Source of the DNA: Bacteroidales bacterium
GTDB taxonomy: Bacteria > Bacteroidota > Bacteroidia > Bacteroidales > UBA932
Length of the DNA: 64,000 nucleotides
Direction of reading: 5' to 3'
Assembly: GCA_017427885.1 (NCBI GenBank)
Contig: JAFRRW010000017.1
Span: forward strand, 62,001 to 126,000
In this document: in pieces, positions 2,456 to 38,843 of the stretch
Layout: every line of letters starts with the position of its first letter
How positions within the stretch are numbered: position 1 is the stretch's first letter
Translations under genes and position numbers: made by a program
Notes under the pieces: model-generated
Database searches by the model: none
The model's input: the letters and a program-made list of their open reading frames with translations, nothing else
What the model was told of the DNA's origin: nothing

Positions 2456-3093
2456 AAGAAAGGACTCTGAAAGAACTTGAAACCGTCCTGGAGAACCATC
2501 CGGGGCTGGAAGTCTGCCGGAAGGACATCGAGGCGGCGTTCGGACTGCTGCTCTCCACCGTACGGAACGGCGGGCTGATAATGACCTGCGGCAACGGGGG
2601 GAGCGCCTCCGATTCGGGCCACATCGTAGGGGAACTGATGAAGGGATTCAAAGACCGCAGACCCCTCACGGCCGGCCAGAGGGATGCCCTCTGCAAGGCG
2701 TTTCCCGATGAAGGTCCGGCCTTGGCCGACCATCTTCAGCAGGCCATTCCGGCCATAGCCCTGACCGACCAGGCGGCGATTGCCACGGCCTTCGCCAACG
2801 ACGTCGATCCCGACCTGGTCTTCGCCCAGCAGGTCTTCGGATACGGCAGGCCGGGCGACACCCTCATCGGGCTTTCCACGTCAGGGAATTCCAAGAACGT
2901 GGTGAACGCCTGCAAGGTGGCGAAGGCCTTCGGGGTGAAGACGATAGCACTGACCGGAGAAGGCGGCGGGGCGCTCGCCGGCCTCTGCGACGTGACCGTC
3001 CGTGTCCCCGCCTGCGAGACCTACCGTGTTCAGGAGTACCACCTCCCCGTATATCACGCCCTCTGCGCCATGCTGGAGGCGGAAATGTTTTGA
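2443..3093 (+). CDS. SIS-domain phosphosugar isomerase, GmhA-like
   Basis: The 216-residue protein has the SIS fold of phosphosugar isomerases. The first phosphate-binding block is TCGNGGSASDSGHIVGEL near residues 47-64 and the second is GLSTSGNSKNVVNACKVAKAF near 145-165, the pattern of sedoheptulose-7-phosphate isomerase GmhA and the related DiaA. An insert of about 30 residues between the blocks makes it longer than typical GmhA (about 190). The start lies inside the end of the preceding lipoprotein gene (13-base overlap), so an isomerase is coupled to envelope lipoproteins of possible sugar function. No other heptose genes are visible, so the true substrate may be another sugar phosphate. 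Confidence 0.8.
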   Translation: MREMKERTLKELETVLENHPGLEVCRKDIEAAFGLLLSTVRNGGLIMTCGNGGSASDSGHIVGELMKGFKDRRPLTAGQRDALCKAFPDEGPALADHLQQAIPAIALTDQAAIATAFANDVDPDLVFAQQVFGYGRPGDTLIGLSTSGNSKNVVNACKVAKAFGVKTIALTGEGGGALAGLCDVTVRVPACETYRVQEYHLPVYHALCAMLEAEMF

Positions 3094-3104
3094 ATCCAAT
3101 GCTT

Positions 3105-3223
3105 TTAAATATCCTGATACCCTTTCAGATGACGCCGCTTCGCGGCCCCTCCCACTTCGTGGGCCCCTCCCTCTCATCTTGCCGAGGGTGGCAGAGTCAC
3201 TGAAAGGGTATCAGGATATTTAA
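3105..3223 (+). repeat. Variable-arm palindromic element, copy A
   Basis: Two perfect 24-base inverted arms (3105-3128 and 3200-3223) enclose a 71-base core. The core contains the mini-hairpins GCCGC-TTC-GCGGC and CCCAC-TTC-GTGGG and a third with stem CCCTC/GAGGG. The core matches copy B, in opposite orientation on the plus strand, at 69 of 71 positions, while the arms share only the inner CTTTCAG with B. The element starts 11 bases after the SIS gene stop and ends 26 bases before the next start. No T-run follows the stem, so it is not a standard intrinsic terminator. Confidence 0.9.
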
Positions 3224-3249
3224 TAATCAGAATCAAATTATTAATCAAT

Positions 3250-4362
3250 ATGGACAGAAGAGATTTCATAAAGAATTCGGCAATGGCCCTCGCCGCAGGC
3301 TCGGCGATGGGTTTACCGGGCATCAATGCAGCCGCGAAGGCCTCCGGGAACGGCGCCCCTGACGACTTCCAGTACCCTTCCCCCCACAAGGGTTCGGGTG
3401 TGGCCAGGGATTTCAAGTACAACGCCGACGGCAAGTTCAAGGTGCTCCAGATCACCGACACCCACGTCATCTACGGAGACCCCAGGAGCGAAAGGGCCTA
3501 TGAGAACGTGGCAAAGATGCTCGACATAGAGAAACCCGACCTGGTGATACACACGGGAGACGTCATCTTCGGCCGTCCGGCCGAGGAAGGGCTCCGCAAG
3601 ATCCTTGGGATCATCGCCGACCGCAAGATTCCCTTCGCCGTAGCCCTGGGCAACCACGACAGCGAGTCCGGTCTCACGCGCATCGAGGTCCTTGACGTAA
3701 TCCGCACCATTCCGTACAATATCAACACCCCCGCCGACAAGGGGATTTCAAAGGCGACAAACGACGTCATCACCCTTTCAGGCGACAACGGGGTGGACAG
3801 GGTGTTCTACCTCTTCGACTCGGGACGCTCCATGGATATTGAAGATGCAGGCTACGACAACGTCCACATCGACCAGATCGAGTGGTACGAGTCCTGGAGC
3901 AAGGAATTCAAGGCAAAGAACGGCGGGGAGCCCGTGCATTCACTGGCCTTCTTCCATATCCCTCCCGCAGAGTTCGACTACTGCCTCAGGCTTACGGACG
4001 ACAAGGGATGGAACTTCCTCGGACATATGGGAGAGCATATCGGCTGCTCGAAACTGAATTCCGGCCTCTTCCAGGCGATGAAGATGAACGGTGACATCCA
4101 GGCCATTGTCTGCGGCCACGAGCATAACAACGACTTCGTGATGCAGTACAAGGGCGTGATGCTGATCTACGGCCGTTTCAGCGGCTGCGACACCGTTTAC
4201 AACGACCTCAAGCCCAATGGGGCCAGGGTGTTTGAATTCACCAAGGGACAGCGTGGCTTCACCACCTGGGTACGTCTCAACACAGGGGAAACGGAGCATC
4301 GAATCTTCCTCGATCCCCCGATGCTGGACAACTTCAAGGCCCACCGCGAGCCGAAGAAATAG
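3250..4362 (+). CDS. Tat-exported calcineurin-like metallophosphoesterase
   Basis: The 370-residue protein starts with a twin-arginine signal (RRDFIK at residues 3-8, then an alanine-rich hydrophobic stretch), so it should be exported folded by the Tat system whose genes lie further along the window. It has the full two-metal phosphoesterase motif set: DTH at about 70-72, GDVIFG, GNHDSE and GHEHNND. The family includes purple-acid-phosphatase-like and cyclic-nucleotide phosphodiesterase-like enzymes; the substrate cannot be told from sequence. It follows repeat copy A and is convergent with folD, 29 bases apart. Confidence 0.88.
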   Translation: MDRRDFIKNSAMALAAGSAMGLPGINAAAKASGNGAPDDFQYPSPHKGSGVARDFKYNADGKFKVLQITDTHVIYGDPRSERAYENVAKMLDIEKPDLVIHTGDVIFGRPAEEGLRKILGIIADRKIPFAVALGNHDSESGLTRIEVLDVIRTIPYNINTPADKGISKATNDVITLSGDNGVDRVFYLFDSGRSMDIEDAGYDNVHIDQIEWYESWSKEFKAKNGGEPVHSLAFFHIPPAEFDYCLRLTDDKGWNFLGHMGEHIGCSKLNSGLFQAMKMNGDIQAIVCGHEHNNDFVMQYKGVMLIYGRFSGCDTVYNDLKPNGARVFEFTKGQRGFTTWVRLNTGETEHRIFLDPPMLDNFKAHREPKK

Positions 4363-4391
4363 CCGTTCCCTGGATTAAATCTTATACACTG

Positions 4392-5252
4392 CTATCCCTG
4401 CATCTTCCTGAGGAAGCAGTCGATGGTGTTGCGCATCAGGCAGGCGATGGTCATCGGACCGACGCCTCCTGGGACGGGCGTGATGACGGAGGCCTTCGGG
4501 GCGACGCTGTCGAAATCCACGTCGCCGCAGAGTTTTCCGGTCTCGGGGTCCCTGTTGACGCCCACGTCGATCACCGCTACGCCTTCGCTGACCATATCTC
4601 CCGTGACGAACTTCGGACGGCCGATGGCGACTATCAGGATTTCGGCCTGACGGGTGATGTCAGCCAGATCCCTGGTCCTGGAGTGGCAGATGGTGACGGT
4701 GGCGTTGCGGTCCAGAAGGAGTTTGGACACCGGAAGGCCCACGATCTGGCTCCGGCCTATGACGACCGCCCTTTTCCCGGCCATCTCTATGTTCCCCTCT
4801 TCAAGGAGGCGGATTATGCCGGCAGGGGTGCAGGGCACGATGCAGGAGGCATTGGGACGCTTTTGCCACAAAGTCGCCGTATTCAGGGGATGAAAGCCGT
4901 CAACGTCCTTCTCGTGTGAAATCGCCTCGACGACCTTCGGTTCGCTTATGTGACGGGGCAGGGGCAGCTGGACGAGGATACCGTCCACGCCGTCGTCGGC
5001 ATTGAGGGCGGCAATCCTGTCGAGCAGTTCCTCTTCGGGAGTATCCGCCGGAAGGAGCACGAGGGTGCTCTTGATCCCGACGGTCTCGCAGGCTCTCGAC
5101 TTGTTCCTGACATATACCTGGCTGGCGGGGTCCTCCCCCACCAGAATCACCACCAGATGCGGTACTCGGCCATATTTCGCGGGAAATCCGGTCACTTCGG
5201 CGGCCATCTCCGCCTTCATCCTGTCAGACAGTTCTTTTCCTGAAACTACCAT
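4392..5252 (-). CDS. folD: Bifunctional methylene-THF dehydrogenase/cyclohydrolase
   Basis: FolD interconverts 5,10-methylene-, methenyl- and 10-formyl-tetrahydrofolate in the cytoplasm, supplying the formyl donor for purine synthesis and initiator-tRNA formylation. The 286-residue length is normal. Signatures seen are VQLPLPRH, DGFHPLN, GRSQIVGLPVSKLL (the Rossmann loop region) and the C-terminal PVPGGVGPMT. It lies downstream of purD on the same strand, separated by repeat copy B, which fits supply of one-carbon units to PurH here and to the Fmt domain at 54621-55649. Confidence 0.96.
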   Translation of the reverse strand: MVVSGKELSDRMKAEMAAEVTGFPAKYGRVPHLVVILVGEDPASQVYVRNKSRACETVGIKSTLVLLPADTPEEELLDRIAALNADDGVDGILVQLPLPRHISEPKVVEAISHEKDVDGFHPLNTATLWQKRPNASCIVPCTPAGIIRLLEEGNIEMAGKRAVVIGRSQIVGLPVSKLLLDRNATVTICHSRTRDLADITRQAEILIVAIGRPKFVTGDMVSEGVAVIDVGVNRDPETGKLCGDVDFDSVAPKASVITPVPGGVGPMTIACLMRNTIDCFLRKMQG

Positions 5253-5274
5253 AACTACTTCATTTTACGTTCTC

Positions 5275-5391
5275 GGAATCACCATCTTTGCTTTCAGTGA
5301 CTCTGCCACCCTCGGCAAGATAAGAGGGAGGGACCCACGAAGTGGGAGGGGCCGCGAAGCGGCGTCATCTGAAAGTAAAGATGGTGATTCC
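5275..5391 (-). repeat. Variable-arm palindromic element, copy B
   Basis: Arms of 23 bases (5275-5297 and 5369-5391) pair at 22 positions; the single exception would be a G.U pair in plus-strand RNA. They enclose a 71-base core almost identical to copy A read in the transcription direction, differing at two positions. It begins 8 bases after the purD stop and ends 22 bases before the folD start. Apart from the innermost CTTTCAG the arms are unrelated to those of copy A. Confidence 0.9.
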
Positions 5392-5399
5392 AAACATGT

Positions 5400-6728
5400 C
5401 TATAGCGAATAATGTCCTATGTCGGTGCGGTGGAAGAGGTTGTCGCAGCGGATCTTGCCGACTGCGGCGAGGGCCCTGTCACGGGCCTGGGAAAGGGTTT
5501 CTCCCGAGGCGGTGACCATCATCACGCGGCCGCCGGCGGTAATGACCTTTCCTCCCTTCACCGATGTTCCCATATGATAAATCCTTACGGCCGGGTCGGC
5601 CAGGACATCTTCCAGGCCGTCGATTTCATATCCCTTCGAATACTTCCCCGGATATCCCTTCGAAGCCAGGACGAATCCTATGACGCAGTCTTCCGACCAG
5701 CGGATCTCTGGCATCGGGGTTCCGTCCACGACAGCGGAGAACATCGTGTAGATGTCAGACTCCAGACGGGGAAGGACGACCTCGGTTTCCGGGTCGCCGA
5801 ACCGGCAGTTGAACTCGATGACCTTGATTCCCTGAGGGGTTTTCATAAGGCCTCCGTACAGGAGTCCCTCGAAGGGGCAGCCTTCCTCGAACAGGCCTTC
5901 CGCCACCGGCTTCAATATCTTTTCAATGGAATAATCCACATCCTCCGGGGTGATGAACGGAAGCGGGGAATAGGCTCCCATTCCGCCGGTATTCGGGCCC
6001 CGGTCGCCGTCAAAGGCCCTTTTGTGGTCCTGCGCAAGGGCCAGGGGCCAGACTTCTTTCCCCCTTACAAGTGCCATGAAACTGAACTCCGGACCGGTCA
6101 GGAATTCCTCCACCACCACCTTCCCCTTGCCGAACCTGTCGTCCAGGAGCATATCCTTCAAGGCTGCCTCCGCTTCCTCGGGACTCATCGCCACGACTAC
6201 TCCCTTTCCGGCCGCAAGGCCGTCATATTTCAGCACGACGGGAATGCTCCCGGCCTTAACGTATTCCAAAGCCTCGTCATAGTCGGTAAATGTCCTGTAC
6301 GATGCGGTGGGAACACCTTTGCGCTCCATTATCTCCTTCGCGAAACTCTTGCTCGACTCAATCCTGGCCGCTGCGGCCGAAGGGCCGAAAATCCTCATCC
6401 CGGCGGCCCTGAACTGGTCGGCTATGCCGGCGGAAAGAGGGACCTCAGGGCCTACTACGGTGAGGTCGATATGCTCGTGGACGGCGAACTCGAGGAGTTC
6501 GTCAGTCTGGATATCGTCGAGGGGGATGCACTTCGCCTGGGTGGCGATTCCGGCGTTACCGGGGGCACAGAAAATCTTCTTCACATAGATGGAACGGCTC
6601 AGGGCATCGACTATTGCGTGCTCGCGGCCGCCTCCGCCGACGACGAGGACCTTTGCGTCTTTCACCTTTTCAAGGGTGATGGTGGGGCCGTCCGGCTTAT
6701 ACTCGGGTACGGTGACAAATATTCCCAT
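5400..6728 (-). CDS. purD: Phosphoribosylamine-glycine ligase (GAR synthetase)
   Basis: PurD joins glycine to phosphoribosylamine with ATP, the second step of purine synthesis. The 442-residue protein carries KVLVVGGGGREHA, the ATP-grasp region with DGLAAGKGVVVA, PNTGGMGAYSP and NCRFGDPETE. The annotated ATG gives about 26 residues ahead of the usual KVLVVGGGG start; a GTG near residue 22 (6663-6665) would give the usual N-terminus. I keep the ATG because it lies 10 bases after the purH stop, the usual spacing in this operon. Repeat copy B follows the stop. Confidence 0.95.
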   Translation of the reverse strand: MGIFVTVPEYKPDGPTITLEKVKDAKVLVVGGGGREHAIVDALSRSIYVKKIFCAPGNAGIATQAKCIPLDDIQTDELLEFAVHEHIDLTVVGPEVPLSAGIADQFRAAGMRIFGPSAAAARIESSKSFAKEIMERKGVPTASYRTFTDYDEALEYVKAGSIPVVLKYDGLAAGKGVVVAMSPEEAEAALKDMLLDDRFGKGKVVVEEFLTGPEFSFMALVRGKEVWPLALAQDHKRAFDGDRGPNTGGMGAYSPLPFITPEDVDYSIEKILKPVAEGLFEEGCPFEGLLYGGLMKTPQGIKVIEFNCRFGDPETEVVLPRLESDIYTMFSAVVDGTPMPEIRWSEDCVIGFVLASKGYPGKYSKGYEIDGLEDVLADPAVRIYHMGTSVKGGKVITAGGRVMMVTASGETLSQARDRALAAVGKIRCDNLFHRTDIGHYSL

Positions 6729-16038: not shown

Positions 16039-16166
16039 TTTTTCCCGGCGGGTACCCTTTGGAAACCGTCTCGCTTCGCTCGATCCCACCGTTCGCTACG
16101 CTCACGGTCCCCCCTCTTATGATGCCGAGGGTAGCACAGGTTCCAAAGGATACCCGCCGGGAAAAA
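16039..16166 (-). repeat. Variable-arm palindromic element, copy C (divergent)
   Basis: Arms of 26 bases (16039-16064 and 16141-16166) pair at 25 positions. The 76-base core differs from A, B and D in its first two mini-hairpins (one with stem CCGT/ACGG) but keeps the CCCTC/GAGGG hairpin and the following GGGTAGCA. Relative to the flanking genes the core is reversed compared with A, B and D. It starts 8 bases after the cysS stop and ends 13 bases before the xth start. The arms are GC-rich and unlike those of the other copies. Confidence 0.85.
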
Positions 16167-38744: not shown

Positions 38745-38843
38745 ACATTAAACATTGTCTCTTCAAGTGACTCTGCCACCCTCGGCAAGATGAGAGGGAG
38801 GGGCCGCGAAGCGGCGGCATCTTGAAGAGACAACGTTTAATGT
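38745..38843 (-). repeat. Variable-arm palindromic element, copy D (short core)
   Basis: Arms of 23 bases (38745-38767 and 38821-38843) pair at 22 positions around a 53-base core. The core matches copies A and B except that the 18-base unit holding the CCCAC/GTGGG mini-hairpin is missing, leaving GCCGC/GCGGC and CCCTC/GAGGG. It lies 10 bases after the stop of the outer-membrane protein gene and 36 before mtlA. The arms differ in sequence from those of the other copies. Confidence 0.9.

Follow-up and report, generated by a model that had tools for sequence, protein, structure and literature searches.

Known palindromic repeats

Rickettsia palindromic elements are described as gene-less palindromic repeats of about 150 bp, and many of them lie in frame in metabolic genes, as outlined in passages of PMC10969869 and PMC3733652. 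REP sequences of the GTAG and CGTC super-families are short, high-copy hairpins located mostly downstream of genes, and CGTC repeats are reported from Bacteroidetes; the same passages describe some REP families whose stems have alternative residues that are complementary, and take frequent G-T pairs in some REP stems as a sign of RNA use (PMC3733652). Template switching between inverted repeats reportedly homogenises arms and inverts spacers in yeast genes (PMC8604942), and reportedly makes several paired changes at once in rRNA stems (PMC8794818). Nematomorpha mitochondria have perfect inverted repeats inside protein genes, both arms of which are stated to encode conserved protein regions (abstract-level account of PMC6649704).

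The elements described here are short, gene-less and palindromic, measure about 95-190 bp including their arms, and form a family that is mobile over evolutionary time in one genus of Bacteroidia. The original prediction held that no described family has their layout, in which a shared core is closed by arms private to each locus. No paper listed from the literature searched, which took in few subscription papers, has the complete layout; the in-frame palindromic elements of Rickettsia and the alternative complementary stems of REP show that parts of it are known.

Elements of the window

The window is the whole stretch of 64,000 nucleotides analysed, which belongs to contig C17 in a genome (G000) of 1.87 Mb and 17 contigs. 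A search of the whole window for inverted repeats with arms of 18 nt or longer, at most 250 bp apart, returns nine pairs. These include all four elements that had been proposed to share a core and to have locus-private complementary arms, and the remaining five pairs are complementary at 72-80% of positions.

Element 1, on the plus strand, has a left arm of 24 nt at 3105-3128, a conserved core at 3129-3199 and a right arm at 3200-3223, which is complementary to the left arm at 24/24 positions (100%). Its core, which matches no Rfam family, consists of mini-hairpins joined by CCCCTCCC and of a TGCC-GAGGGT-GGCA hairpin. Element 2 (5275-5391, minus strand) has arms of 23 nt at 5275-5297 and 5369-5391, paired at 22/23 positions (96%), and lies between a folD-like gene (4392-5252, minus strand) and a purD-like gene (5400-6728, minus strand). 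Element 3 (38745-38843, minus strand), which has a short core, is located upstream of a PTS EIIABC-like gene, and its arms of 23 nt at 38745-38767 and 38821-38843 are also paired at 22/23 positions (96%). Element 4 (16039-16166, plus strand) represents a second subtype, with arms of 31 nt at 16039-16069 and 16136-16166 that are 90% complementary, or 25/26 in the stretch used originally; its neighbours are a cysteinyl-tRNA synthetase gene and a gene of the exo/endonuclease-phosphatase family.

The cores of elements 1-3 are near-identical, and element 4 has the 3' core hairpin and a C-rich stretch in common with them. Overall, arms of 23-31 nt close a core of about 50-80 nt in which mini-hairpins such as GCCGC-TTC-GCGGC are followed by the TGCC-GAGGGT-GGCA hairpin. 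Two-sided variants of the latter (AGCC..GGCT, and flanking G..C and C..G) suggest that its pairing is preserved, and its loop could also pair with an upstream CCCTC. Rfam models identify only a tRNA at gathering score in the whole window, and give no match up to E = 1 in the region 3050-5450.

Family size and distribution

The last hairpin of the core, TTGCCGAGGGTGGCA, with at most one mismatch, was used as core pattern. The original prediction depended on further copies in the genome, and these are present: the pattern has 34 matches in G000, at least one of which, L028, in a coding context, is due to chance. It is found in 79 of the 150 genomes searched, G000 included, namely in 62 of 91 genomes of the genus and in 17 of 59 outside it; the element layout is absent at the 17 loci examined outside the genus (L031-L047). 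Matches in the genus sum to about 350 in 91 genomes, chance matches included, and 12 of the 91 have at least ten. Copies occur in many species of the genus, which may be Cryptobacteroides; titles of related contigs read uncultured Bacteroidales (L061) and Bacteroidia (L062, L063).

Some copies depart from the common form. L019 and L026 of G000 have cores of 137 and 139 nt that contain insertions of 80-90 nt, much alike in the two. At C10:12531-12656 of G000 (L004/L023), two elements 110 bp apart have nearly identical left arms, and their outer arms pair across both elements, as if by tandem duplication.

Possible carriers were also considered. Carriage by phages or plasmids was rejected, as viral contigs have no match to two exact patterns; blastn of the 119-bp element 1 against phage and plasmid collections, from which records near the genome of the window may be missing, also gives no match. 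For a Y1 transposase as candidate mover, gene counts do not track element copy number: in 56 genomes of the genus the core-motif count and the number of PF01797 matches have a Spearman coefficient of 0.16 (p 0.23). In G000, which has two Y1 genes, the nearby 4.5 kb stretches lack the core motif.

Other repeats are seen in the same genomes. One of these is a second family of hairpins, with the core ..CGCTTCGCGCCCTATCCGGGTAAATG.. and with paired arms private to each copy, which has five copies in the G090 and G459 DNA compared (L203:9937, L274:3992, L281:3972, L278:5233 and L268:466), two of which occupy the same site in two species; one of its sites is empty in G459, with neither arm visible by eye. 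A third core (..GTACTCAGCCGCAGCGGAGCGAGGATGG..), with 39 pattern matches, many of them probably due to chance, also has private arms, and some of its copies lie inside genes (L204:16868, L200:9011, L173:2479, L140, L210, L218). Short GTCATTCTGAGCGAAGCGAAGAATCT-like insertions differ by presence and absence between G090_C12 (L270-L276) and G459 (L277-L283), and the neighbourhoods of both Y1_Tnp genes in G000 lack the motif.

Private and paired arms

The arms of 148 core-motif hits from 11 genomes were parsed, and 129 hits pass the arm-pairing score at a cut-off of 10, the best rejected score being close to it (9.6). The remaining hits comprise five without paired arms, seven without core context, five too near an end and two duplicates. 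The five unpaired hits correspond to four elements, which by eye are the tandem double L004/L023, the deleted-looking L066 and L213 and the degenerate L125. Of the seven hits that lack core context, two (L019 and L026) are the long-core elements, whose arms are paired, four look like chance matches, and L142 may be a remnant of an element. Complementary flanks in other copies, on which the original prediction also depended, are therefore the case for 129 of the 148 hits and not for the four unpaired elements.

Pairing is specific to each copy. At arm positions 6-15 of 28 copies of G000, own arms pair in 240 of 280 cells, while right arms swapped between copies pair in 41.6% on average and in at most 52.1% among 500 shuffles; at positions 16-22, the values are 162 of 196 cells for own arms and a mean of 35.1% for swapped arms. 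In these outer positions, own-arm pairing in G000 thus amounts to 83-86% against 35-42% after swapping. Strong likeness between copies is restricted to the five arm bases adjoining the core, with a weak consensus CCTGNATNNCTTTCA farther out. Among the 129 parsed copies of the 11 genomes, no two copies from one genome have an 11-mer in common in the distal 15 nt of their arms, so no recent daughter copy is seen; the near-identical left arms of L004/L023 fall outside this comparison, one member having been dropped by the parser. The variable ends, noted from the beginning as a difference from MITEs, are confirmed by the poor pairing of swapped arms and by the private outer 11-mers.

Gene context and in-frame copies

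Gene context and orientation were assigned with a crude ORF caller. Copies of G000 are intergenic, with arm ends often at most 20 nt from a called gene end: among 28 copies, 15 lie in co-directional gaps, eight in convergent and two in divergent gaps, one is unassignable, and two are called inside frames, a call that is probably wrong. In the relatives, many copies lie within reading frames and keep the frame; by the same caller, 65 of the 129 parsed copies are inside an open frame, including the two probably spurious ones of G000. Ten element-bearing ORFs were compared with Pfam and all ten match families, which include purH (AICARFT), a GH3 glycosidase, the 2-oxoacid dehydrogenase E2, RsmF, FtsK and a citrate lyase ligase/CitG protein. 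Proteins of the genus, such as purH, RsmF, FtsK and the 2-oxoacid dehydrogenase E2, can thus contain inserts encoded by palindromes, a point to be considered when its genomes are annotated and modelled.

Related species differ in the element subtype present at the GH3 and purH sites, so replacement of elements also occurs. The purH gene of G017 (L179) has a palindromic CGTCCGGCCGGAC at the insertion loop, which resembles a scar left by the collapse of an element like that in G042.

Empty sites

The nearest relatives found are G253, which appears to be RUG11209, and G150 (SRR873600_bin.137), and their DNA is about 75-83% identical to G000 over most long matched stretches and less so in some. 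Five sites of G000 have an empty allele in a relative: L005 and L030 in both G253 and G150, L006 in G253, and L007 and L010 in G150, L010 being filled in G253. The gaps at these empty sites are short, from a few bases up to several tens. Neither arm is present in these alleles, where the longest exact match to an arm is 4-6 nt, like that of shuffled arms. A comparison of G459 with G090 adds two further empty alleles, and one of the filled alleles is flanked by an 11-bp direct repeat. Over all nine empty alleles at seven sites, neither arm is found and the longest arm match is 4-7 nt; shuffled arms average 5.3-5.7 nt for the eight alleles at six sites other than L007, for which 6 nt was observed. 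Because the empty sites hold neither arm, the arms are part of the inserted unit, and at the sites tested both enter with the insertion.

These alleles bear on two of the origins first proposed, that the element enters existing palindromes or that its spread copies the target in inverted form, processes that would have left both arms or one arm, respectively, at an empty site. Privacy of the arms at each locus would agree with either process, and at one GH3 site the empty G459 allele resembles, by eye, one flank-plus-arm of G272. That allele had led to an initial preference for target copying, which was abandoned on the clean empty sites and a flank k-mer test: k-mers of the outer arms are no more frequent in the flanks of their own copy than in those of other copies. 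No perfect inverted repeat longer than 9 bp exists in the eight empty alleles at six sites checked (four sites of G000 and two of relatives, L007 excluded), which argues against existing palindromes. Neither origin fits the sites tested, and both are very improbable.

Target-site duplication is not general either. The longest direct repeat in the flanks has observed means of 4.79 and 4.67 against permuted values of 4.75 and 4.64, and the 11-bp direct repeat at the G459/G090 site is the sole clear case that resembles a duplicated target.

Copies at shared sites

Four elements of G253 were examined, and three are at sites also filled in G000 (L010, L026 and element 2 of the window, whose core is inverted in G253); the fourth (L062/L108) has no match in the G000 DNA compared. 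G150 has one element at the G000 site L029. All four shared-site elements of G253 and G150 are intergenic, and the core is inverted in three of them. Arms at shared sites differ yet look related, as in GAGAATCCCTTATATCTCTTTCAG of G000 and GGAGTCCCTTTCATTTCTTCCGG of G150, each with its own complement. The cores of L010 and L228 are alike at 69/71 positions (97%) in surrounding DNA of about 78% identity, and cores at further shared sites are less alike (75% and 89%).

Among the parsed copies, 25 sites are filled in at least two species, and 14 of these have at least one pair in opposite orientation. The sites give 48 comparisons, which overlap within sites and leave out L026/L229 (L026 was dropped by the parser and read by eye) and L252/L266, which have the same orientation and nearly identical arms. 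In 26 of the 48 the two cores run in opposite orientations. In these comparisons, 143 arm pairs are changed on both sides and still paired, though the choice of arm columns through self-alignment favours pairing and any non-homologous arms also raise this count; a further 831 arm pairs are alike, 145 columns are broken in one or both copies and 248 are indel columns. The clearest case is L029 of G000 against L105 of G150, with flanks 84% identical, five two-sided differences and one broken column. At shared sites, arm differences are thus frequent, each copy keeps its own arms paired, and inversion of the core is common. Much faster evolution of arms than of flanks was considered and dropped, as L256/L263 have also diverged in the 40 bp adjoining the element.

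Arm change and inversion go together in closely related copies. For pairs whose two flanks each reach an identity of 0.83 or more, counted by hand and with a cut-off picked after the data were seen, at least three two-sided arm differences are present in nine of ten inverted pairs and any such difference in none of six same-orientation pairs (Fisher 0.0009, post hoc); at a looser cut-off of 0.80, also a hand count, arms have changed in 11 of 14 inverted pairs against one of nine in the same orientation.

Independent insertion or allele exchange may account for some of the same-site pairs. A general form of this explanation is that the sites are hot spots where elements are lost and reinserted with new arms each time, so that same-site copies are often independent insertions. 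It would account for the different subtypes at the GH3 and purH sites, for the apparent palindromic scar in the G017 purH gene, for the changed arms of inverted close pairs and for the lack of parsed paralogues with common outer arms. Hot spots, however, predict changed arms about equally in both orientations, against the 0 and 9 observed in close pairs (1 and 11 at the looser cut-off), and at several sites (L029/L105, L026/L229, L236/L260) the arms look homologous by eye. This explanation is unlikely.

Pairing in RNA or in DNA

The arms had also been proposed to co-evolve as an RNA stem, and the two parts of this proposal fare differently: co-evolution is borne out by the two-sided paired differences at the 25 shared sites, and RNA as its level is not supported. 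Complementarity would here be held by selection on a stem in the transcript, with a role in mRNA stability, as an RNase III site or in attenuation. The two-sided differences agree with such selection, as does the position of G000 copies between genes, often near start or stop codons and mostly in co-directional or convergent gaps. Selection on an RNA stem should also leave more G·U than A·C mismatches when the sense strand is read. No clear excess exists, with small numbers of 11 against 9 in co-directional intergenic copies and 15 against 28 in genes (untrimmed counts, 17 against 15 and 36 against 52, respectively). Furthermore, pairing persists in copies that lie within reading frames, in which a stable stem in the mRNA would be expected to interfere, and the core inverts in more than half of the comparisons. 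Maintenance by RNA selection is thus unlikely, and a DNA-level process is favoured by the pairing inside frames, the frequent core inversion and the arms of two further core families, which are likewise private and paired.

Proposed mechanism

Template switching is the preferred and most likely mechanism at the DNA level. Each copy would be one unit, with a conserved core and two arms, that is inserted whole. The sequence of the arms would be free to drift, and template switching during replication within the hairpin would copy one arm onto the other, keep them complementary and on occasion invert the core, which would stay alike in all copies through constraint or exchange among copies. Drift with arm-to-arm copying, in combination with a constrained or exchanged core, would therefore make arms private per locus and leave cores alike. 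That a mobile unit of core and arms is kept paired, made private and at times inverted by drift and template switching is, in our judgement, moderately probable. Paired two-sided differences together with spacer inversion at shared sites are what template switching leads one to expect, and both are observed (143 arm pairs; 26 of 48 overlapping comparisons).

Template switching within a single hairpin homogenises arms and adds no new sequence, and drift by itself gives no reason for arm change to coincide with core inversion; this coupling is not fully explained. Alternatively, each flip, or each move, could renew the whole stem, in an inversion-coupled process that writes new complementary arms from a source that is neither the target nor a sister copy. 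Such renewal is suggested by arms that have changed with an inverted core (9/10) and not otherwise (0/6), and by the lack of outer arms common to two parsed copies of a genome, and it seems quite unlikely.

The genus is a natural experiment on the upkeep of complementarity in long, diverging DNA stems, with 129 parsed copies from 11 genomes, known empty sites and pairs of species in which flank identity ranges from about 75% to 97%. The family lets selection and template switching be tested against each other outside rRNA.

Comparison with known systems

MITEs are similar to the present elements in being non-autonomous and gene-less with inverted-repeat ends; unlike MITEs, the family has ends that are not conserved between copies and no general target-site duplication. 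REP sequences share the short hairpins and the high copy number. The differences from REP/RAYT systems are the units of 95-190 bp, the mini-hairpins inside a long private stem, the absence of a clear G-U excess and the fact that no link to Y1_Tnp was found in the genomes compared. GACG or CGTC is seen by eye beside the first hairpin in some subtypes only.

Correction of quasipalindromes resembles the process proposed here in arm homogenisation and spacer inversion, also in coding DNA, as far as portions of PMC8604942 and PMC8794818 describe it. It differs in that the present case is a dispersed repeat family with arms of at least 20 nt and spacers of 50-80 nt, against spacers or loops of a few bases in the published spacer inversions considered. 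Coding palindromes of Nematomorpha differ by the dispersed common core of the present family, since none is mentioned in the abstract-level account of PMC6649704.

Rickettsia palindromic elements are similar in their palindromic unit of about 100-150 bp and in the in-frame insertion into protein genes, which is seen here in the relatives. Going by their description, the present family differs from them in its locus-private arms, frequent core inversion, host outside Rickettsia and intergenic copies in G000. The family therefore behaves like a Rickettsia palindromic element and lacks the conserved ends of MITEs, its likeness to Rickettsia palindromic elements and REP being drawn from their published descriptions.
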